This document shows, one piece after another, positions 4,129 to 42,674 of a DNA stretch of 42,674 bases. A model generated the notes under the pieces. It was not told the origin of the DNA and made no database searches. It was given only the letters and a program-made list of their open reading frames with translations. The position numbers and the translations under genes are program-made. This stretch comes from Cytophagales bacterium (lineage in GTDB: Bacteria > Bacteroidota > Bacteroidia > Cytophagales > VRUD01). Location of the stretch: positions 1 through 42,674 of the forward strand of contig VRUD01000034.1 of assembly GCA_019456305.1 (NCBI GenBank), given 5' to 3'. Every line of letters starts with the position of its first letter. The first letter of the stretch is position 1.

Positions 4129-4902
4129 TCATAAGATATTTTCATACAATGCATCATATTCTTCAACCTTACCTTGGTTTCTAAATGAGACCACCAGGTC
4201 TGCTAACTTAAAGGAGTTGTTTCTAAGAAATTCATCTACCTGATGATACTGACATCCATCTTGATAAATTTCATGATTGTTCATTTCTAGTAATACATAT
4301 CTGGTTTTTAAAAGAGATATTATTGCTCCTTTTAAAATTGATAATTCGGTACCTTGTGTATCTATTTTAATCAATAAAATATTTTTGGCATTATCAAATT
4401 CTTTATCAACTGTTGTAACTTCAACATTTTGTTTTTCTACAAGCTGGAATTTTGATTTATGTTCATCCGGGAATAAATTTATTTGGAAATCATTTAATTC
4501 ATTTAATGAGGATGATAAACTATTTTCGGTAACATTTAATATGGCGTTGCCCTGTTTTTCACCTAAAGCCATGTTTTTTAGTATAATATTTTTATAATTA
4601 CTACACTTTAATTTTGCAAATTCAAATAATTTAAGATAGGGTTCGTAACTATAAACTTTCAAATCTTTGTAATGCTTTGCAAAAAACAGGGAAGTATCAC
4701 CATTTGCACAACCAATATCTATTATTACCGATCCTTTTAAATCGGTTTTTCGCTTTTTTATTAAATTTACTGTTCTGAATAAATGTTCTGAAGGATTTGT
4801 AAAAAAGTTATCTTTAACATAATAATAGATAAATTGATTGATTTGAAAGGGAAATAAACAAAATTTGATTGCATATTTAGCAATAATCTTAAATAGGTTC
4901 AT
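4129..4902 (-). CDS. FkbM-family SAM methyltransferase
   Basis: A Rossmann-fold methyltransferase that transfers methyl from S-adenosylmethionine to a sugar hydroxyl. It shows motif I (IIDIGCANGDTSLFF), the acidic strand YSYEPYLK, and the FkbM-specific LLIKIDTQGTELSILKGA and VLLEMNNHEIY boxes. The frame is open from an ATG at 4926, but I choose the ATG at 4902 (MNLFKIIAKYAIKF, 257 residues). That ATG makes an ATGA overlap with the TGA of the upstream GT87-like gene, the usual mark of translational coupling. It is closely related in layout to the FkbM gene at 19502-20338: both share LEMxNHxxYQ and an EYDA/EWDA-type end. It probably O-methylates a residue of the surface glycan. Confidence 0.9.
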   Translation of the reverse strand: MNLFKIIAKYAIKFCLFPFQINQFIYYYVKDNFFTNPSEHLFRTVNLIKKRKTDLKGSVIIDIGCANGDTSLFFAKHYKDLKVYSYEPYLKLFEFAKLKCSNYKNIILKNMALGEKQGNAILNVTENSLSSSLNELNDFQINLFPDEHKSKFQLVEKQNVEVTTVDKEFDNAKNILLIKIDTQGTELSILKGAIISLLKTRYVLLEMNNHEIYQDGCQYHQVDEFLRNNSFKLADLVVSFRNQGKVEEYDALYENIL

Positions 4903-6254
4903 AATACAAGCATTCTTTTTGCCCATAACGGTAATGTATGTATCATCATAAAAATAAGGTATGCAAAAATATACCAGTTTATGAATTCCTCAATAAGGGT
5001 ATAAAGAAAAAAATAAAATTTACCAAATAATACATACGACCAAAAAGTAATGATAATACCTATCAGCGCAAGCATTGTAGGTGTTCTTATTACATTATTG
5101 TCACTACATGAATGTTGTGTTACATTGTTGTACTTTACCCAAGCTAATAGCTGGGGTATAGCAAATATTAAGAAAATAAATTTATAGTCAAAATTATTTC
5201 CGATCAAAAATGTGCCGATATAAATACAAGCGCCTATTTTAAAGCTGAAAAAATGGTCTTTTTGAAGGCTCCGGGTACTCCCTGAGTGCCCGGATTCTTC
5301 AAAAAGATTTACTTTATTGAGCAAGGCCGATTTTTGCTTTTTTACTATAAACAATAATGTTAATATGAGAACAGCTATTGTAGCGTAAGCAATTATTTTT
5401 ATAGGTATCAAAGAAAATATATTATGAAATATGGGATAGTAATCCAATAAATTTAAAAAAACAAGGCAGCCATATTGCGTTGCTACAGATATTGACCAAT
5501 ACTTTTCCTTAAGAAGATGACTTATGTAAATAATATCCTGCAGGTTGAAAAAAATATAAATGATGCCAATAGAAAGTAAAACAAAAAAAAGGATCAATGA
5601 TGGCTTCCTTCTCTCATTAAAAAATGCTGCGATTGTTGCAAATGGATATAATTTTAAAAATGAAGCAAGCATCAAAAATGTACATGACCAAAAAACAGTA
5701 TATTTTTTTTTGACAATTAAAACAGAAAGAGCACATAATATAAAAATGAACAAGTCAGGATTACAACGTTCTACTGCCAGCATGATCGGAGGTGAACACA
5801 TTATTAAACCATAATATATTCCTTCATTGACATTTAATTTACCAATTAACCAAAAAGTAAAAACATAAAATATGGTAACAATTCCAATAGCTATAGCAAT
5901 AATGTTATCATACGAAAAAGGGAGATATGAAAAAAGAAGCCACATTCTTGGGTAAGAATAATTTTCATGATAAGGATGACATGGGTTAGTGCTTAATACA
6001 TCATATCCTTTTCTATAACACTCAAAAATTGAAATATTGATGTTTAAATCCAAAAATAAAGTTTTTGCTGCAGGCACACCAAAATACTGCCAGAAATTGG
6101 TGTAATCCATAAAAAAAGATGAAACATATATTGCAATAAAATATAATGTTATTACTAATAATAAAACCACCCTGCCATCAACTCTGGATTTCTTAGAGAT
6201 AAAAAGTATCAATTTATCTGCAGCGTTATTGATAAACTTTATTAAATATTTCAT
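4899..6254 (-). CDS. GT87-like polytopic membrane glycosyltransferase (copy 1)
   Basis: A 451-residue membrane protein with roughly ten hydrophobic segments, starting at VVLLLVITLYFIAIYVSSFF. It fits the GT-C fold, DUF2029/GT87 type, with an acidic residue after the first helix (FMDYTNFWQY), an RCNPDLFIFILC segment and LASFLKLYPFATI before a cytosolic FNERRKP loop. Such enzymes use a polyprenyl-phosphate sugar donor on the outer face of the membrane. The next gene upstream (6276-7604) is a tandem paralogue, identical along many stretches. This copy differs by an in-frame hairpin insert at 5257-5307 (LFEESGHSGSTRSLQKD) and by a short extra segment (VTQHSCSDNNV). The insert lies in a loop between helices. 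Substrate unknown. Confidence 0.75.
   Translation of the reverse strand: MKYLIKFINNAADKLILFISKKSRVDGRVVLLLVITLYFIAIYVSSFFMDYTNFWQYFGVPAAKTLFLDLNINISIFECYRKGYDVLSTNPCHPYHENYSYPRMWLLFSYLPFSYDNIIAIAIGIVTIFYVFTFWLIGKLNVNEGIYYGLIMCSPPIMLAVERCNPDLFIFILCALSVLIVKKKYTVFWSCTFLMLASFLKLYPFATIAAFFNERRKPSLILFFVLLSIGIIYIFFNLQDIIYISHLLKEKYWSISVATQYGCLVFLNLLDYYPIFHNIFSLIPIKIIAYATIAVLILTLLFIVKKQKSALLNKVNLFEESGHSGSTRSLQKDHFFSFKIGACIYIGTFLIGNNFDYKFIFLIFAIPQLLAWVKYNNVTQHSCSDNNVIRTPTMLALIGIIITFWSYVLFGKFYFFLYTLIEEFINWYIFAYLIFMMIHTLPLWAKRMLVL
5257..5307. repeat. Hairpin element inserted in-frame in the GT87-like gene
   Basis: Two arms of 24 bases (5257-5280 and 5284-5307) are complementary at 21 of 24 positions around a three-base loop. 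The core (ccgggtactc / gagtgcccgg) resembles a drifted element C. The tandem paralogue has no counterpart at the matching place, so this is an insertion rather than ancestral sequence. Confidence 0.8.
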
Positions 6255-6275
6255 GTGAATCTATAGCTTTTATTT

Positions 6276-7604
6276 TCATTTTTTACTTAATAATAGCATC
6301 CTTCTTGCCCATAGAGGTGATATATGTATCATCATATAAATAACGTATGCAAAAATATACCAGTTTATTAATTCCTCTATAAAGATCCAAACAAAAAAAT
6401 AAAATTTACTAAATAATACAGTTGACCAAATAGTGATGATAATACCCGCCAGTACAAGCATCGTAATGGTTCTTATTTCATTGTTGTACTTTACCCAGGC
6501 TAATAGCTGGGGTATGGCAAATATTAAGAACATAAATTTATAGTCATAATTATTTCCGATCAAAAATGTGCCGATATAAATAGAAGCACTTATCTTAAAA
6601 TTGAATAAATGTTTCTGAACCGTCCCCATTATTAAATCGGAGTTTAATTTCTGGTTTTTTATGATATATATCAGTGTGAATATAAGTATAGCTACTATGG
6701 TGTAAGAAATTATTTTTGCAGGGATTACAGAAAATATATAATGAAAGAAAGGGTAGTAATTCAAAAAATCAAATAAAACAAGACAGCCATATTCTGCCAC
6801 AACATATTTTGACCAAAACTTTTCTTGAAGATTATGACTTATATAAATAATGTCCTGCAGGTTTAAGAATATATAAATGATACCAATAGAGAGTAAAATA
6901 AAAAAAGCGATTAAAGATGGCTTTTTTTTCTCATTAAAAAATGCTATGATTGTTGCGAATGGATAAAGCTTTAAAAATGAAGCAAGCATCAAAAATGTAT
7001 ATGCCCAAAAAGCAGGATACTTTTTTTTGACAACTAAAACAGCAAGGGCACATAATATAAAGATATATATGTCAGGATGACAATATTTTACTGCCAGCAT
7101 GATTGGAGGCGAGCACATTATTAACCCATAATATATTCCCTCATTAATATTTAATCTACCAACTAACCAAAAAATAGAAGAATAAAATATTGTAATAATA
7201 CCAATAGCTATACCAACAGTACTATCAGTCGACACATGAAGATTTGAAAAAAGAAGCCAAATTCTTGGATAAGAAAAATATCCATGATAAGGGGTACATG
7301 GGTTAGGGCTTAATACATCATACCCTTTGCTGGAACAGTCTAAAACTGAGATTATATAGTTTAGATCCATAAACAAAGTTTCTGCCTTAAATACACCTAA
7401 ATACAACCAGAATTTGTCGTAATCCATAAAAAAAGATGAAACATAAATTGCAATAAAATAGAAGCTTATAAATAATAACAGAATTATTCTGCCATCAAGA
7501 TTAGAAGGTTTTGAGATGAAAAGTGCAAATTTATCACCAGCGTCATTAAGAAACTTAGTTAGATAATTTGAAAATTTGGTAATTTGAAAATTTGTAGAGT
7601 ACAT
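6276..7604 (-). CDS. GT87-like polytopic membrane glycosyltransferase (copy 2)
   Basis: A 442-residue membrane protein, paralogue of the gene downstream. Shared blocks include FYFIAIYVSSFFMDY, NEGIYYGLIMCSPPIMLAV, SFLKLYPFATI, IGIIYIFLNLQDIIYIS and YIGTFLIGNNYDYKF. It lacks the hairpin insert of its neighbour: between helices it simply reads IKNQKLNSDLIMGTVQKH. It starts MYSTNFQITKF, about 17 residues longer at the N-terminus than copy 1. The tandem pair, 21 bases apart, arose by duplication and may add the same sugar to two different positions, or one may be redundant. It is divergent from the gene at 7673 across a 68-base spacer that must hold its promoter. GT87 assignment is by topology and weak motifs. 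Confidence 0.75.
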   Translation of the reverse strand: MYSTNFQITKFSNYLTKFLNDAGDKFALFISKPSNLDGRIILLLFISFYFIAIYVSSFFMDYDKFWLYLGVFKAETLFMDLNYIISVLDCSSKGYDVLSPNPCTPYHGYFSYPRIWLLFSNLHVSTDSTVGIAIGIITIFYSSIFWLVGRLNINEGIYYGLIMCSPPIMLAVKYCHPDIYIFILCALAVLVVKKKYPAFWAYTFLMLASFLKLYPFATIIAFFNEKKKPSLIAFFILLSIGIIYIFLNLQDIIYISHNLQEKFWSKYVVAEYGCLVLFDFLNYYPFFHYIFSVIPAKIISYTIVAILIFTLIYIIKNQKLNSDLIMGTVQKHLFNFKISASIYIGTFLIGNNYDYKFMFLIFAIPQLLAWVKYNNEIRTITMLVLAGIIITIWSTVLFSKFYFFVWIFIEELINWYIFAYVIYMMIHISPLWARRMLLLSKK

Positions 7605-7646
7605 GATCAGAACGTAAATGAATTATTGTATTCTCAAATTATTTTT

Positions 7647-7658
7647 TGTAAATTTACA
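7647..7658. promoter_or_regulatory. 12-base palindrome in divergent spacer, possible operator
   Basis: TGTAAATTTACA is a perfect palindrome in the spacer between two divergent transcription units. It lies 14 bases before the ATG at 7673, next to a TAttTTTG-like box that has one base too many for the Bacteroidota -7 consensus. In AT-rich DNA such a palindrome could be chance. Confidence 0.25.
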
Positions 7659-7672
7659 CAAAAAAATCAAAT

Positions 7673-8659
7673 ATGCATAACGCTGGTAAAAAGGCTATAA
7701 TAGCCGGCCACACCGGACAAGATGGGAGTTATCTATATAAATACCTCCATGAAAAGGGCTGTAATATTATTGGAATAGCCAGTAAGTCTATTGATACAAC
7801 TCACCACCAACCGGGTTTGAGCAAACATATTAATATTGTTGAAAGAGAAAGTGTATATAAGCTTATTGATAATTACCAACCAGACGAAATCTATTATTTA
7901 GCGGCAGTACATCAGTCTTCAATTGATATTCAATATGATGAATCTGAATTATTTAAAAAAAGTATTGAAATAAATTTAATTGCTCTTATCAACTTTTTAG
8001 AAGGAATAAAGAAGTATTCAAAAAGCACCAGGTTATTTTATGCTGCTTCTTCCCACATTTTTGGCAATCCAACTGAAAGTCCCCAAAATGAGCTCACTCC
8101 TTTTAGACCAAACTGCATATATGGAATTACCAAAACCGCTGGAGTGAATACCTGCCACTTTTATCGTACTAACTATGGTATTATGGCAAGTATAGGGATA
8201 TTCTATAATCACGAGTCACCGATTCGCTCATCAAAGTTTGTTTCAAAGAAGATAGTAGAAACAGCAGTTGCTATTAAAAACAAAACACAACACCATCTGG
8301 TTATTGGTGATCTTAATGCCAAAATTGATTGGGGATATGCTTTAGATTATGTTAAAGCTATGCACAAAATACTTCAGCTAAATATTGCCGATGATTTTAT
8401 TATTTCAAGCGGTTCTATTCATACAGTTGGGGATTTTGTTAGAGGGGTTTTTGGATACCTCGGATTAGACTGGTCAGAATATGTAAAAGAGGACCCTAAC
8501 CTGATCACTAAAAAACCTAAAAAAAATCTTTATGGTAATAATCAAAAACTAAAAACAATGACGGGCTGGGACAATACTGTTAGTTTTAATGAATTAATTG
8601 AAATTATGGTTGATGCCGAATTAAAAAAAGTTGGCAGCTTGGCCCCGTTAGATAAATAA
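7673..8659 (+). CDS. GDP-mannose-4,6-dehydratase-like SDR lacking the catalytic Glu
   Basis: An extended short-chain dehydrogenase of the GMD branch acting on a nucleotide sugar. It has the NAD(P)-binding GHTGQDGSY (12-20), YYLAAVHQS (74-82), the catalytic YxxxK as Tyr150-GIT-Lys154, and the GMD-specific NHESPIR box. Two things set it apart from the true gmd of this window (29255-30367). The RRSS loop that binds the NADP phosphate and helps form the tetramer is replaced by ASKSID. The active-site Ser-Glu of SSSELYG becomes Ser-His (SSHIFG, His128). The Glu is needed for water elimination in GMD, so this enzyme is more likely an epimerase, a reductase or an enzyme on another NDP-sugar or heptose (inference). 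It starts the rightward three-gene operon. Confidence 0.8.
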   Translation: MHNAGKKAIIAGHTGQDGSYLYKYLHEKGCNIIGIASKSIDTTHHQPGLSKHINIVERESVYKLIDNYQPDEIYYLAAVHQSSIDIQYDESELFKKSIEINLIALINFLEGIKKYSKSTRLFYAASSHIFGNPTESPQNELTPFRPNCIYGITKTAGVNTCHFYRTNYGIMASIGIFYNHESPIRSSKFVSKKIVETAVAIKNKTQHHLVIGDLNAKIDWGYALDYVKAMHKILQLNIADDFIISSGSIHTVGDFVRGVFGYLGLDWSEYVKEDPNLITKKPKKNLYGNNQKLKTMTGWDNTVSFNELIEIMVDAELKKVGSLAPLDK

Positions 8660-21745: not shown

Positions 21746-23042
21746 AGTTTTCTAAATATAAACCGTGACTCATTCTGGGTTCCACTACACAGCCATATTC
21801 GTTAGTAAAACTTACTGATATTCTTTTAAAATTGTCTATTCTTTCTATTTCTATACCATTAGAATCTATATAAGTAACTAATTTATAATCGCCCGGAATT
21901 AATTTAATGCTTGGAACATGAAAAATGACTTCAAACTTGCCCTTACTTATATTAAATTGTTTGGCAATGAAAGCAGACCAAAGACTCGTTACCCTTGTTT
22001 CAAGAACATTGTCAAAACAAACTGCAAAATTAACATTTTTAAATCCTTGAGATGCCTGGCACTTTAGGATTATATCAATATCATCAAATGTTGAACAATA
22101 ACCGACCTCATTACTTTCATTATTCCTTAATACAATATCCTGAATAGAAATTCCACCTATTCCTCTATTTGAAACTATCTTCTCATCCTGATTTTCCCTT
22201 AAATAAACTCCCACTACTTTATCAATAACATCGTTTGAAATGATTTCACCATCTTTAAGTAATACTCCTCTTGAACACAACCTTTTCACAACAGACATAT
22301 TATGACTGACAAACAATACTGTTTTCCCTTCTTTCTCACTAACATCCTGCATTTTACCTATACACTTTTTTTGAAATTCAGCATCCCCAACAGCCAACAC
22401 CTCATCAATCACTAAGATATCAGGCTCCAAATGTGCTGCTACCGCAAAAGCCAACCTCAACTGCATCCCACTTGAAAATCTTTTTATCGGAGTATCCAAA
22501 AATTTTTCAACACCTGAAAAATCTACTATTTCATCAAACTTCTTTTTGATCTCTTTTTTGGTAAGACCCAGAATGGAACCATTCAGAAAAATATTTTCTC
22601 CACCCGTCAATTCAGGATGAAACCCTGTTCCTACTTCTAACAGACTTGCTACCCTACCTCTGCAAATGATTTTACCCTGCGTAGGTGGCGTGATTTTTGA
22701 AAGAATTTTCAGTAAAGTTGTTTTACCAGCCCCGTTCCTGCCAATGATTGCCAACGAATCACCTGGATAAACATCAAAATTTACATCTCTTAACGCCCAA
22801 AAATCTTTACCCTGCCTGACCCGTTGGATCTTTACCCCGTGATCCCGAGTACTCGGGAGTATTTCAGCGGGGTCTGTTTTATCCAACTGAGGTGGAATTT
22901 CGTTTATTCCATAGGGAGAATTGCTTTTATTTCTTTTTTTGAATACAGAGGTAATAGACTCTCTCAGACTTAAATAGGGTTGAAGCTCCTGGCCTATGCG
23001 AAACTTTTTTGATATTTGTTGTATTTCCAGGATAGGTTTCAT
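21723..23042 (-). CDS. wzt: Polysaccharide ABC exporter ATPase with C-terminal substrate-binding domain (Wzt)
   Basis: A 439-residue ATPase that drives export of a completed, lipid-linked glycan across the inner membrane with Wzm (23176-24000). It has Walker A GRNGAGKTT (101-109), signature SSGMQLR (190-196), Walker B ILVIDE (209-214) and H-loop FVSHN. The first ~80 residues (LRESITSVF...FWALRDVNF) are the N-terminal extension of the TagH/Wzt group. Residues about 270-439 form the beta-sandwich domain that in E. coli O8/O9a Wzt binds the capped, methylated chain end. With so many methyltransferases nearby, a chain-end signal is plausible here too. A perfect palindrome (22843-22858) is read through in the N-terminal loop as PSTRD (about 63-67). 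Confidence 0.92.
   Translation of the reverse strand: MKPILEIQQISKKFRIGQELQPYLSLRESITSVFKKRNKSNSPYGINEIPPQLDKTDPAEILPSTRDHGVKIQRVRQGKDFWALRDVNFDVYPGDSLAIIGRNGAGKTTLLKILSKITPPTQGKIICRGRVASLLEVGTGFHPELTGGENIFLNGSILGLTKKEIKKKFDEIVDFSGVEKFLDTPIKRFSSGMQLRLAFAVAAHLEPDILVIDEVLAVGDAEFQKKCIGKMQDVSEKEGKTVLFVSHNMSVVKRLCSRGVLLKDGEIISNDVIDKVVGVYLRENQDEKIVSNRGIGGISIQDIVLRNNESNEVGYCSTFDDIDIILKCQASQGFKNVNFAVCFDNVLETRVTSLWSAFIAKQFNISKGKFEVIFHVPSIKLIPGDYKLVTYIDSNGIEIERIDNFKRISVSFTNEYGCVVEPRMSHGLYLENYDVEIRV
22843..22858. repeat. Palindromic element C, in-frame inside wzt
   Basis: TCCCGAGTACTCGGGA, a perfect 16-base palindrome identical to the core at 1112-1131. It is read in frame as part of the loop between the N-terminal LRES segment and the first strand of the ATPase core. 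Confidence 0.85.
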
Positions 23043-28013: not shown

Positions 28014-28067
28014 AAGCTAAAGTTGAGTAGAGACGTTGCATGCAACGTCTCTACTCAACTTTAGCTT
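28014..28067. repeat. Perfect 54-base palindrome forming the stop of fcl
   Basis: The two 27-base halves meet at 28040/28041 and are exact reverse complements. The inner 28 bases (gtagagacgttgca plus its complement) look like the mobile core, because the element inside GT2 (675-702) has the same length and ends. The outer 13 bases (aagctaaagttga) on the right are fcl codons, and they are copied in inverted form on the left. The TAG stop of fcl (28051-28053) lies in the core. As RNA it is also a very strong hairpin downstream of fcl. Confidence 0.95.
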
Positions 28068-28980
28068 TGAACGCTTCATACGTTGATCTTATGCCATTCT
28101 CTAATCCAATATGGTATTTCCAACCTAATGAGTTCATTCCGGAAACGTCTAATAACTTCCTGGGAGTTCCATCCGGTTTTGTGCTGTCAAACTTTAATTC
28201 ACCTTCAAAGCCAACGATCTCTTTTATCAATAACGCCAGGTCTTTGATCGTAATATCTTCACCGGTACCAATATTTACTACCTCTGCTTTATCATAATTC
28301 AACATTAAAAAAACACAGGCATCAGCCAGGTCATCAACGTGTAAGAATTCTCTTTTAGGTTTCCCGGAACCCCAGATTTCCACACTTTGAGCATCATTTT
28401 CTTTTGCTTCATGGAACTTCCTGATCAAAGCCGGCAGCACGTGTGAATTTTTCAGGTCATAATTGTCCCCGGGGCCATACAGGTTGGTTGGCATTACACA
28501 AATAAAATTACAGCCATATTGCGAGCGATACGCCTGGCACATTTTAATGCCTGCAATCTTTGCTATGGCGTAAGGTTCATTGGTGGGTTCGAGCAGACCT
28601 GTTAAAAGGTATTCTTCCTTCAAAGGCTGCGGGGCTAATTTAGGATAGATGCAGGATGAGCCTAAAAAAAGGAGCTTTTTCACACCGGTTTTATATGCCT
28701 GGTGAATTATATTATTTTGGATGGTCAAGTTATCATAAATAAATTCAGCACGATACGTGTTATTCGCTAAAATTCCCCCAACTTTGGCTGCTGCCATAAA
28801 AACATATTCGGGTCGCTCACTTCCAAAAAATTTTCTAACCTCTTGCTGATCTCTCAGGTCTAATTCTTTTGAAGCCCGGTAAAGCAGGTTATCATAACCC
28901 TCTCCTTCCAATTTTCGCATGATGGAAGCGCCTACCATACCCGTGTGCCCGGCTATGTATATTTTGCTGGTTTTATTCAT
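28051..28980 (-). CDS. fcl: GDP-L-fucose synthase
   Basis: Converts GDP-4-keto-6-deoxy-mannose, made by Gmd, to GDP-L-fucose by epimerisation at C3 and C5 and NADPH reduction, in the cytoplasm. It shows [14 protein letters not shown] (NADP-binding GxxGxxG), [35 protein letters not shown] (catalytic Ser), [19 protein letters not shown] (YxxxK) and [13 protein letters not shown], all hallmarks of Fcl/WcaG. The frame is open from an ATG at 29010, but I use the one at 28980 ([14 protein letters not shown]), which gives the normal family start and about 309 residues. The last codons and the stop overlap the 54-base palindrome. gmd is upstream, with a small broken gene in between. Confidence 0.95.
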
Positions 28981-29025
28981 TTTTATTATCAATAAATCAA
29001 CAAAAGTCATTTTTTAATACTTTTA

Positions 29026-38632: not shown

Positions 38633-38715
38633 GTCAATTATATCGGCAATCCTTCACTCTGAATTTATGATTTCGGTATTTGTAGTATTGGATTTGCAAT
38701 TAAATCCGCAATCAA

Positions 38716-38731
38716 TCCCTAGTACTCGGGA
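38716..38731. repeat. Palindromic element C, third copy
   Basis: TCCCTAGTACTCGGGA differs from the element at 22843-22858 by one base. It lies in the 174-base gap between cusA and the gene upstream, beside short aatccgcaat repeats. Confidence 0.7.
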
Positions 38732-38765
38732 CGAAATCCGCAATTCCTAAAAAAATGCTATACTG

Positions 38766-39848: not shown

Positions 39849-42674
39849 TTATCTCATCAAAACAATTTTCTTAATGAATATTTCCTGCGGAGTTTTAACC
39901 TTTACATAATATATGCCGGTTGGCCGACCGGAAAAATCTACCTTAAATAATTCATTTGCAATTTTCTGCTGTGGGATTTTGTAAATTAAATTACCTGTCA
40001 AATTATAAATTGCGACCTCTGTTTCCTGTTGATCAGTGAATGAAAATTCAATGATCAATTCATCTTTGGCAGGGTTGGGGTAGATTTTTAATTGATCATT
40101 GACCAATGTATAATGGCGAACACCAGTAGGCAAAAGCCGGTTTGATACATTTGACCTGGCAGAATTGTAGATTAGTACCTTACTCAGATTTGGATCACAG
40201 CTCGCAGGATGCTTTACAACAACCCGGTAAGAGAGGTTTGCAGGGGGTGGTGAAAAGTCTGTACGTGAGGTCAGCGTACTTGCAATTGAATCTATCTCCA
40301 CCCAGCCGGTTGACGTTGTATACCTGTGAATATAATAGGTGAGAAACCCAAAACCCTCATAATGATCCCATATCAAATTAATAACCCCGCCTAATCCTTC
40401 ATTGATGGTGAGGTGCATGGTTTTGTGTAACTGACTTTTTTCTGACTCATTACCACAGGAATCTACTACTGATATCCTATACCTGTACGCCTGCTGAAGC
40501 GGGTTTGACAATGTGTCTGTAAATACGCTTACACTGTCAACAGGAACGTTTCCTATCAAATAATAGGTGCCGGCTTGTGAACTCTCCCTGTAAATATTGT
40601 ATGATTGCACGCCCTGTGTCTGCAGCTTCTCCCATACTACAAGGTTGCTGCCCGTGGCGCTATCAACCGTAACAAGGCATATTGAAGCATCTGTTGCAGG
40701 CACCCCTGATATGTGAGCGCTTTCAGTTGCGATACAGCCGTTCGTAGTATCGGTTACTGTCACACTATAAGTTCCTGACGATACGCCAACAAGGTCCTGT
40801 GTAGAAGAGTTGTTTGACCACAGGTAAGTATAATCTCCCGAACCTCCTGTTAAAGTTATGTATATTGAACCCAGATCAGCTCCGCAGCCCCCGTCTATGA
40901 TTGAATCTATTGTGATGGTAGCTCCGCCAATATCGCTTACTGCTGCTGTGGCTGAATCGGTACAGTTGTTTGCATCTGACACTGAAACAGTATAAACTCC
41001 GGCTGTTAAGCTGTCTTCAGTAGAATCTGTTCCGCCTGTACCCCATTGGTATATGTATGGGCTAACTCCTCCGCTTATGCTTACCGTTGCGCTGCCTGTG
41101 TTATTTCCGCAATTTGCATCAGTGGTAGTTACTGTAAATAAGAAAGGATCGGGCTGAGTGAGGGTAACGCTTTTATTGGCAATGCAACCTGTAGAATCTG
41201 TAACCGTCAGTTCATAGGGCCCGGCAACCAAACCTGTGATAACCTGTCCGGTGCTTCCGTTTGACCACTGGTAAGTAAAAGGCGCTGTTCCGCCTGATAC
41301 ACTCACAGCAATTGAACCATCTGAACCACCATTACAGGTAATATCATTTGCTGCCACCACCGTGATAACTGGCCCGTTATTGTCGCTGATGATGGCGATC
41401 TCAAAGTTTGAGCAACCATTGTCGTCTGTAACGGTTACAACATAAATACCTGAAGCCAGGCTGTCTGCATCGGGCAGCGTATCTCCGCTTGACCAGGAAT
41501 AAGTATAAGGAAGGGTGCCAAAAGTAACAGCGACTGATGCGCTGCCATCTGAATTGCCGCAAGTGGCATCTGTTGGAGTGATGGCCAGGATCATTTCAGG
41601 GGTTGAAATAACAGTGACCGTTGCTATTTCTAAACAGCCGATAGAATCGGTTACAGCCACATTATAAGTGCCTGCACACAGGTTTGTTGCAGTGGCAGTA
41701 GTCTGTGATGAAGGGTCGTCCCATAAATAGCTGTAAGGTTCGGTACCTCCGAAGCCTATTCCAGTTGCTGTGCCATTGCATACGGCAATACAGGAGGCAT
41801 TTGTGTTGGCTGTGCCGATGGTTAGGATATATAAAGTTGAAATGGTAACGCTGCCGGTGGCGGTGCAGCCGTTAGAATCGGTTATTGTCACTGAATATGT
41901 GCCTGCGCATAGATTTGGAAATGTTTGTGTAACGGGCATTGATGGGTCGTCCCACAGGTAAGTGTAAGGTGGGGTGCCTCCTGAAACAATTGCGGTTGCA
42001 GCGCCATCACACACGCCATTGCATGTGGCGTTGGTGACAGTAAATGAAACTGAAAGCGAATCGGGCTCTGTGATGCTTATGGTATCTGAAACGTTACAGC
42101 CTAAGCTGTCGGTAACGGATACCCAATAACTACCTGCTGCAAGCCCTGATATTGAATCTGTGGTATCTCCGGTTGACCAGAGGTAAGTGTAAGGCGTTGT
42201 GCCACCTGTTGCTGTAACCGTTGCTGTGCCGTTATTGCTACCGCAAGTGGCAGGTACAATAGTAACAGAATCGGTAATGGCTGTCAATACCGTTAAATTA
42301 GTTGTAACAATACTATCGCAACTGTTAACCGCTGTTAATGTATCAGTGTAAGTTGCGCTCACGGTGTAAGTGTTTGTTCCAACGGTTACGCTTTCTCCTG
42401 CGCACACGGTGGGCGATTGTGAAAATGTGTTTGCAGGCAGTACAGTTAAATTAGTTGTTACCGTACTGTCGCACCCATTGACTAATGAAGTTAAGGTATC
42501 AATATAGGTATTGCTCACGGTGTAAGTGTTTGTTCCAACGGTTACGCTTTGCCCTGCGCACACGGTGGGCGATTGTGAAAATGTGTTTGCAGGCAGCACA
42601 GTTAAATTAGTTGTTACCGTACTGTCGCACCCATTGACTAATGAAGTTAAGGTATCAATATAGGTATTGCTCAC
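39849..42674 (-). CDS. Giant SprB-repeat T9SS surface protein, C-terminal 941 residues
   Basis: The C-terminal part of a secreted protein; its N-terminus is beyond the right edge. It begins with nearly identical 52-residue repeats (DTLTSLVNGCDSTVTTNL, VLPANTFSQSPTVCAGQSV). Seven SprB-type repeats of about 70 residues follow, each with a C-G/N-G start, a GGxxPYTYLWS-type core and a GxYxVxVTDxxGC end. Then come two fibronectin-III-like stretches (SYNIYRESSQAGTYYLI, TYYIHRYTTSTGWVEI) and a T9SS type A sorting domain (KIYPNPAKDELIIEF, then GIYYVKVKTPQEIFIKKIVL). SprB is the gliding adhesin of Flavobacterium; here gliding is not proven, but a long, sticky surface fibre is likely. Confidence 0.9.
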   Translation of the reverse strand: MSNTYIDTLTSLVNGCDSTVTTNLTVLPANTFSQSPTVCAGQSVTVGTNTYTVSNTYIDTLTSLVNGCDSTVTTNLTVLPANTFSQSPTVCAGESVTVGTNTYTVSATYTDTLTAVNSCDSIVTTNLTVLTAITDSVTIVPATCGSNNGTATVTATGGTTPYTYLWSTGDTTDSISGLAAGSYWVSVTDSLGCNVSDTISITEPDSLSVSFTVTNATCNGVCDGAATAIVSGGTPPYTYLWDDPSMPVTQTFPNLCAGTYSVTITDSNGCTATGSVTISTLYILTIGTANTNASCIAVCNGTATGIGFGGTEPYSYLWDDPSSQTTATATNLCAGTYNVAVTDSIGCLEIATVTVISTPEMILAITPTDATCGNSDGSASVAVTFGTLPYTYSWSSGDTLPDADSLASGIYVVTVTDDNGCSNFEIAIISDNNGPVITVVAANDITCNGGSDGSIAVSVSGGTAPFTYQWSNGSTGQVITGLVAGPYELTVTDSTGCIANKSVTLTQPDPFLFTVTTTDANCGNNTGSATVSISGGVSPYIYQWGTGGTDSTEDSLTAGVYTVSVSDANNCTDSATAAVSDIGGATITIDSIIDGGCGADLGSIYITLTGGSGDYTYLWSNNSSTQDLVGVSSGTYSVTVTDTTNGCIATESAHISGVPATDASICLVTVDSATGSNLVVWEKLQTQGVQSYNIYRESSQAGTYYLIGNVPVDSVSVFTDTLSNPLQQAYRYRISVVDSCGNESEKSQLHKTMHLTINEGLGGVINLIWDHYEGFGFLTYYIHRYTTSTGWVEIDSIASTLTSRTDFSPPPANLSYRVVVKHPASCDPNLSKVLIYNSARSNVSNRLLPTGVRHYTLVNDQLKIYPNPAKDELIIEFSFTDQQETEVAIYNLTGNLIYKIPQQKIANELFKVDFSGRPTGIYYVKVKTPQEIFIKKIVLMR
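42361..42672 (-). repeat. 156-base tandem repeat, at least two copies, running off the window
   Basis: Copies at 42361-42516 and 42517-42672 differ at only 3 of 156 bases, and the next one begins at 42673. Each encodes 52 residues with two cysteines (NGCDS, VCAGQ). The third, more worn unit lies just left of 42361. Confidence 0.93.

Follow-up and report, generated by a model that had tools for sequence, protein, structure and literature searches.

A palindromic hairpin read through as protein in one of two tandem GT87-like genes, and its possible origin

The two GT87-like genes and the hairpin

The window, the whole stretch of 42,674 nucleotides of a Cytophagales bacterium that was analysed, carries two tandem GT87-like genes whose proteins are 70% identical (Table 1). 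The initial annotation had described the pair as closely aligned and had assigned a 51-base hairpin to the downstream copy only, and we find the same on both counts: the hairpin occupies 5257-5307 exactly and does not occur in 6276-7604. Its arms are 88% complementary and enclose a 3-nt loop. Folded as single-stranded DNA, the sequence reaches a z-score of -6.53, and none of 200 shuffled versions folds as well. The structure is nested, with outer arms TCTTTTTGAAG/CTTCAAAAAGA enclosing an inner stem TCCGGGTACTC/GAGTGCCCGGA. Owing to the complementarity of the outer arms, the coding-strand sequence is CTTTTTGAAG (LFE) at 5297-5307 and CTTCAAAAAGA (LQKD) at 5257-5267, and the in-frame reading of the whole hairpin is (N)LFEESGHSGSTRSLQKD.

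Table 1. Features of the two GT87-like genes, the hairpin and the second indel (window positions).
Feature	Position	Strand	Remarks
GT87-like membrane glycosyltransferase with hairpin	4899-6254	-	PF09594 24.1 bits, just below the cut-off of 25
Tandem GT87-like paralogue without hairpin	6276-7604	-	PF09594 26.4 bits
Hairpin within the coding sequence	5257-5307	.	Read on the - strand as LFEESGHSGSTRSLQKD
Hairpin arms	5257-5280 and 5284-5307	.	24 nt each
Outer arm	5257-5267	.	Arm pair TCTTTTTGAAG / CTTCAAAAAGA recurs at G000:C11:8808-8849
Other outer arm	5297-5307	.	+ strand is CTTCAAAAAGA
Inner palindrome TCCGGGTACTCCCTGAGTGCCCGGA	5270-5294	.	Single copy in the genome, <=3 mismatches
Paralogue's matching loop	6612-6646	-	35 bases versus 74; D5 and D1 block boundaries
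First copy of 12-base direct repeat, TTACATTATTGT	5090-5101	.	Flanks the second insert
Second insert CACTACATGAATGTTGTG	5102-5119	.	18-base imperfect palindrome, one copy in the sample
Second copy of direct repeat, TTACATTGTTGT	5120-5131	.	11/12 identical to the first
Single copy of the segment in the paralogue	6476-6487	.	Clean empty site; the end of block D2 and the start of D5 share 12 bases

How much sequence was added? Ungapped homology between the two genes extends up to 5255/6611 and begins again from 5330/6647 (repeat blocks D5 and D1), and these block boundaries fix the variable stretch without any choice of gap. The stretch measures 74 bases, against 35 in the paralogue, a net difference of 39 bases or 13 codons. 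The proposed insertion of 51 bases, or 17 codons, is therefore not what the alignment gives, though a net 39 bases does keep the reading frame, as had been claimed. With the loop taken to start at the conserved basic stretch and to end at the following helix, the protein alignment gives 37 residues for the hairpin gene, against 24 for the paralogue and 24-27 for the four distant homologues, an excess of 10-13 residues. Exact removal of the hairpin yields an alignment score with the paralogue of 69.4, whereas the best-scoring removal among all those tried reaches 75.5. The paralogue had been proposed as a natural control, and this is true only in part, because the alignment of its loop does not give a clean empty site at the hairpin. 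The target duplication looked for at the hairpin junctions was not found either: the 30-base flanks share no direct repeat longer than 5 bases, a length common at random positions. In the structure prediction, for which the paralogue was the sole other alignment row, the insert falls mostly in coil between helices 285-314 and 329-351, which is a hint only, the model being unusable (mean pLDDT 42). We also considered the repeat CTGAACCGTCCCCA in the paralogue loop as an insert of the paralogue's own; it has one copy, and the 6 sites that differ from it by up to 2 mismatches in 843 kb are close to the chance number from a rough estimate by hand, and the idea was dropped.

A stable stem with a T-rich stretch a few bases downstream on the coding strand is what an attenuator or terminator inside the gene could look like. 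However, the hairpin is read through in frame at a point some 70% of the way along the coding sequence; it is absent from the three terminator-like sites found in 4700-7800, and it lacks the intrinsic-terminator pattern of a GC stem with a T run immediately behind it. A regulatory RNA hairpin is thus scarcely probable at this place.

A second indel of the same gene, at 5090-5131, was overlooked in the initial annotation. It amounts to 30 bases, is in frame and corresponds to the residues VTQHSCSDNN. The 12-base repeats around its 18-base palindrome resemble a target duplication, and the empty site adjoins in the paralogue, so that the duplication sought at the hairpin is found elsewhere in the gene, at an indel for which the paralogue does provide a clean empty site. 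Of about 42,600 window positions, 3 show a repeat of this kind at a distance of 30, two of them within the GT87 genes. The paralogue may instead have lost these bases by an exact deletion from repeat to repeat, but two distant homologues are also short at this point.

With regard to the hairpin itself, the comparison extends to few genomes. GT87 homologues are present in 3 of 98 relative genomes and in 5 of 390 genomes of the order, the own genome counted in both cases, and the four outside homologues are distant (27-32% identical). No close GT87 relatives were found in the genome contigs searched, where 20 stretches matched a pattern and none was confirmed by tblastn. In three of the four outside homologues the loop DNA was scanned for hairpins, with best scores of 6, 7 and 12, the last being an AT-rich hairpin in the outgroup L140; the loop of the fourth, L138, was read as protein only. 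Gain is favoured over loss because the four distant homologues also lack the hairpin. The proposal that 4899-6254 acquired it after the duplication is accordingly the favoured one as judged from these sequences, distant as they are, the paralogue and all four homologues having shorter loops. The opposite course, in which the hairpin predates the duplication and was deleted from the upstream copy, would be compatible with the poor alignment of the paralogue loop, as after a messy deletion; the short loops of all four homologues and a paralogue with no recognisable deletion scar make it very unlikely.

The aminopeptidase site and the palindromes of the genome

The arm pair CTTTTTGAAG/CTTCAAAAAG, at a spacing of 8-38 bases, occurs at two places in the 4.2-Mb genome. 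The second place, C11:8809-8848, lies within a gene that, judged from its sequence, would encode an M1-type aminopeptidase, and C11:8806-8851 is read in the same frame as the GT87 hairpin, as VNLFE..LQKD. The alignment of aminopeptidase homologues took in 14 of 29 relative loci; 13 of the 14 have an 11-residue gap at this point and one has a 7-residue gap, so the C11 hairpin also marks an in-frame insertion. By our own count the two sites agree at 15 of 16 flanking bases to one side of the hairpin and at 12 of 12 to the opposite side. A common origin of both hairpins is likely from these sequence likenesses. Among 389 other genomes the arm pattern is present in seven, and the spacers listed for these, judged by eye, do not resemble hairpins.

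The initial annotation had held that the element is or was mobile. One other site with the same arms speaks for this, and we consider mobility to be moderately supported by it; against it stand the single copy of the core and the lack of a target duplication. Insertion of an element would further be opposed, at the level of sequence, by the fact that only two places have the same arms, that their similarity by plain BLAST is non-significant (E 0.318) and that their cores differ. A pattern search of the own genome allowing up to 3 mismatches found no second copy of the inner core. The candidate that the whole hairpin is a repeat family was rejected, since BLAST of 5200-5360 against the own genome returned nothing beyond the query, the reverse complement of the query, the flank in the paralogue and weak matches. 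A covariance model built from two training sequences recovered these two, matched the window copy a second time on the opposite strand and gave one further, weak hairpin (C3:84626-84698, E 0.011), which lies between ORFs, has AT-rich arms of other sequence and was taken as unrelated.

In both genes the net insertion is shorter than the palindrome, 39 versus 51 bases in the GT87 gene and about 33 versus 42 in the aminopeptidase gene, as if one arm were native sequence. Indeed, one arm may be native, because the LQK arm in both genes resembles insert-free homologous sequence. This would suit an origin in place, by a template switch (snap-back copying) that copied the native CTTCAAAAAGA inverted, together with filler, and involved no mobile element. 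In the alignments, the LQK arm lies opposite VQK in the paralogue and opposite QPKD/QKD in the aminopeptidase homologues, and the net insertions come to about one arm plus core. But such local formation needs a coincidence, the same 11-base native arm in two unrelated genes, and leaves the GC-rich inner palindrome unexplained; we regard it as rather unlikely.

Palindromes are abundant elsewhere in this genome. In a sample of 842,674 bases (the window and 40 stretches) we counted 93 strong hairpins, hairpins containing N being excluded from the real counts; a second-order Markov resample gave 2. Of the 93, 22 lie within ORFs of 100 aa or more, the ORFs being defined by a crude longest-ORF rule under which some short ones may not be genes. 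Judged from sequence, the palindrome-bearing ORFs include genes resembling those for MoeA and asparagine synthase, and also for isochorismate synthase and other proteins. Near-identical palindromes were found both within ORFs and between genes. MoeA has about 20 extra residues at a 60-base palindrome when compared with E. coli MoeA, and a PDB search gave no alignment over the palindromes of AsnB, GT2 and the saccharopine-dehydrogenase-like protein. The motif TCCCGAGTACTCGGGA has 298 sites within 2 mismatches in the own genome, 144 of them exact, and no exact match in 38 relatives.

In the case of the cores GTAGAGACGTTGCATGCAACGTCTCTAC and AGAGACGCCCAAATTGGGCGTCTCT, counted in L025-L044, L047-L066 and the window, the flanking arms are perfectly or near-perfectly inverted and differ from copy to copy (8/9 and 7/9, against 1/72 and 0/72 controls). 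Such copy-specific arms also speak for local formation of palindromes. The figures for TCCCGAGTACTCGGGA are 5/36 with such inverted arms (controls 9/288) and 12/36 with direct repeats of at least 8 bases (controls 13/288). Two points weigh against this reading: several flanks are repeats themselves, for example GCAGTCGGCA, so that not all arms and direct repeats are independent, and the core GTAGAGACG shows no excess of direct repeats (1/9, controls 9/72). A combined course can be imagined as well, in which a small palindromic core lands and snap-back copying inverts the adjacent host sequence, each copy thereby getting its own arms. For the GT87 hairpin this in-place growth would be one event, with the LQK arm native and the other arm its inverted copy; we hold it to be doubtful.

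Known coding palindromes and the origin of the hairpin

Protein-coding palindromes are best known from Rickettsia. Rickettsia palindromic elements (RPEs) are described as hairpin DNA which has entered unrelated genes without breaking the frame and forms part of their proteins; they are about 150 bp long, with ten families and 44 integrations in R. conorii (PMC10969869, PMC3733652). Like them, the GT87 hairpin is a stable palindrome and stands in frame in a gene whose homologues lack the insert (net 39 bases, with the paralogue and four homologues shorter). It differs in measuring 51 bp, in having two possible copies with different cores and in belonging to a different genome; as to the repeated peptide of RPEs, arms and frame are common to one other gene and the core is not. 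GTAG- and CGTC-tagged REPs are described as short palindromes within ORFs, some of them inserted in longer palindromes, with CGTC repeats reported in Bacteroidetes among other phyla (PMC3733652). The GT87 hairpin is likewise a short palindrome within an ORF and of nested build, but it ends in TCTT...AAGA, with no terminal GTAG or CGTC, and its copy number is low (core one, arms two). Unlike a MITE, it shows no target site duplication beyond the 5-base flank repeat. Nostoc harbours small dispersed repeats that are tiny, hairpin-forming, apparently mobile and nested in one another; the GT87 hairpin is also small, hairpin-forming and nested, whereas the Nostoc repeats are cyanobacterial and of high copy number. 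Inverted repeats also occur in coding sequence of Nematomorpha mitochondria, where template switching has been proposed (PMC6649704), a parallel in favour of local formation; those hairworm palindromes differ from the GT87 hairpin in being far longer (up to 284 bp), perfect and mitochondrial.

By sequence, we do not class the hairpin as an RPE, REP or MITE, because it departs from REPs and MITEs and, as regards the repeated peptide of RPEs, shares arms and frame but not the core with one other gene. By analogy, the best reading is that it represents another protein-coding palindrome, working like an RPE or an intragenic REP. Titles and openings of abstracts on palindrome motifs and on coding palindromes of Bacteroidetes, with few subscription papers among them, contain no description of this case.

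All in all, we think it reasonably probable that, once the gene had duplicated, the downstream GT87-like copy gained the hairpin as a protein-coding palindromic insertion. The hairpin would belong to a large population of short palindromes spread through the genome, which probably moved as single-stranded hairpins through a transposase acting in trans, or else arose by a template switch during replication. The genome has seven matches to Y1 (HUH) transposases, of which five are strong; none is tied to the hairpin at 5257-5307, and they are compatible with movement as single-stranded hairpins. The hairpin may persist because its length keeps the frame and its site is a hydrophilic inter-helix loop, where extra residues would cost little, and no function of the hairpin itself would be required.

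What does this locus add? A hairpin read through as protein is a mostly known kind of genome decoration. Here, a genome other than Rickettsia combines many ORF palindromes with tandem paralogues that serve as before-and-after pairs, and so offers a view of how such inserts arise. Insertion and in-place growth can be tested against each other in this genome because the second indel shows a clean 12-base duplication and other cores have arms that are specific to their locus.

Individual palindromes elsewhere

Several single sites deserve mention in their own right. At 38702-38744 of the window the core TCCCTAGTACTCGGGA (38716-38731) lies between two 11-base copies of AAATCCGCAAT, resembling an insertion with target duplication. 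A perfect 54-base palindrome at 28014-28067, made of the core GTAGAGACGTTGCATGCAACGTCTCTAC and 13-base arms, overlaps the final codons and the stop of the gene at 28051-29010. One family-2 glycosyltransferase gene (112-1098) contains two read-through palindromes, at 540-566 and 674-703. The TCCCGAGTACTCGGGA core at 22837-22863 is read through as ILPSTRDHG in the long N-terminal stretch of an ABC transporter, and the part of this protein that aligns to PDB 8dku starts at residue 79, downstream of the palindrome. In the sample, an ORF palindrome at L029:11950-12030 stands between AACATCCAGC repeats at a distance of 43 bases, a length not divisible by 3; the frame might be restored by the additional palindrome-like sequence beyond. 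At L032:18470-18540, TGACATTTC lies beside a core, inverted across it and once again upstream, giving direct and inverted copies of one flank. Finally, the edge of the window (39849-42674) encodes a large repeat protein with 156-base tandem repeats of 94% identity.
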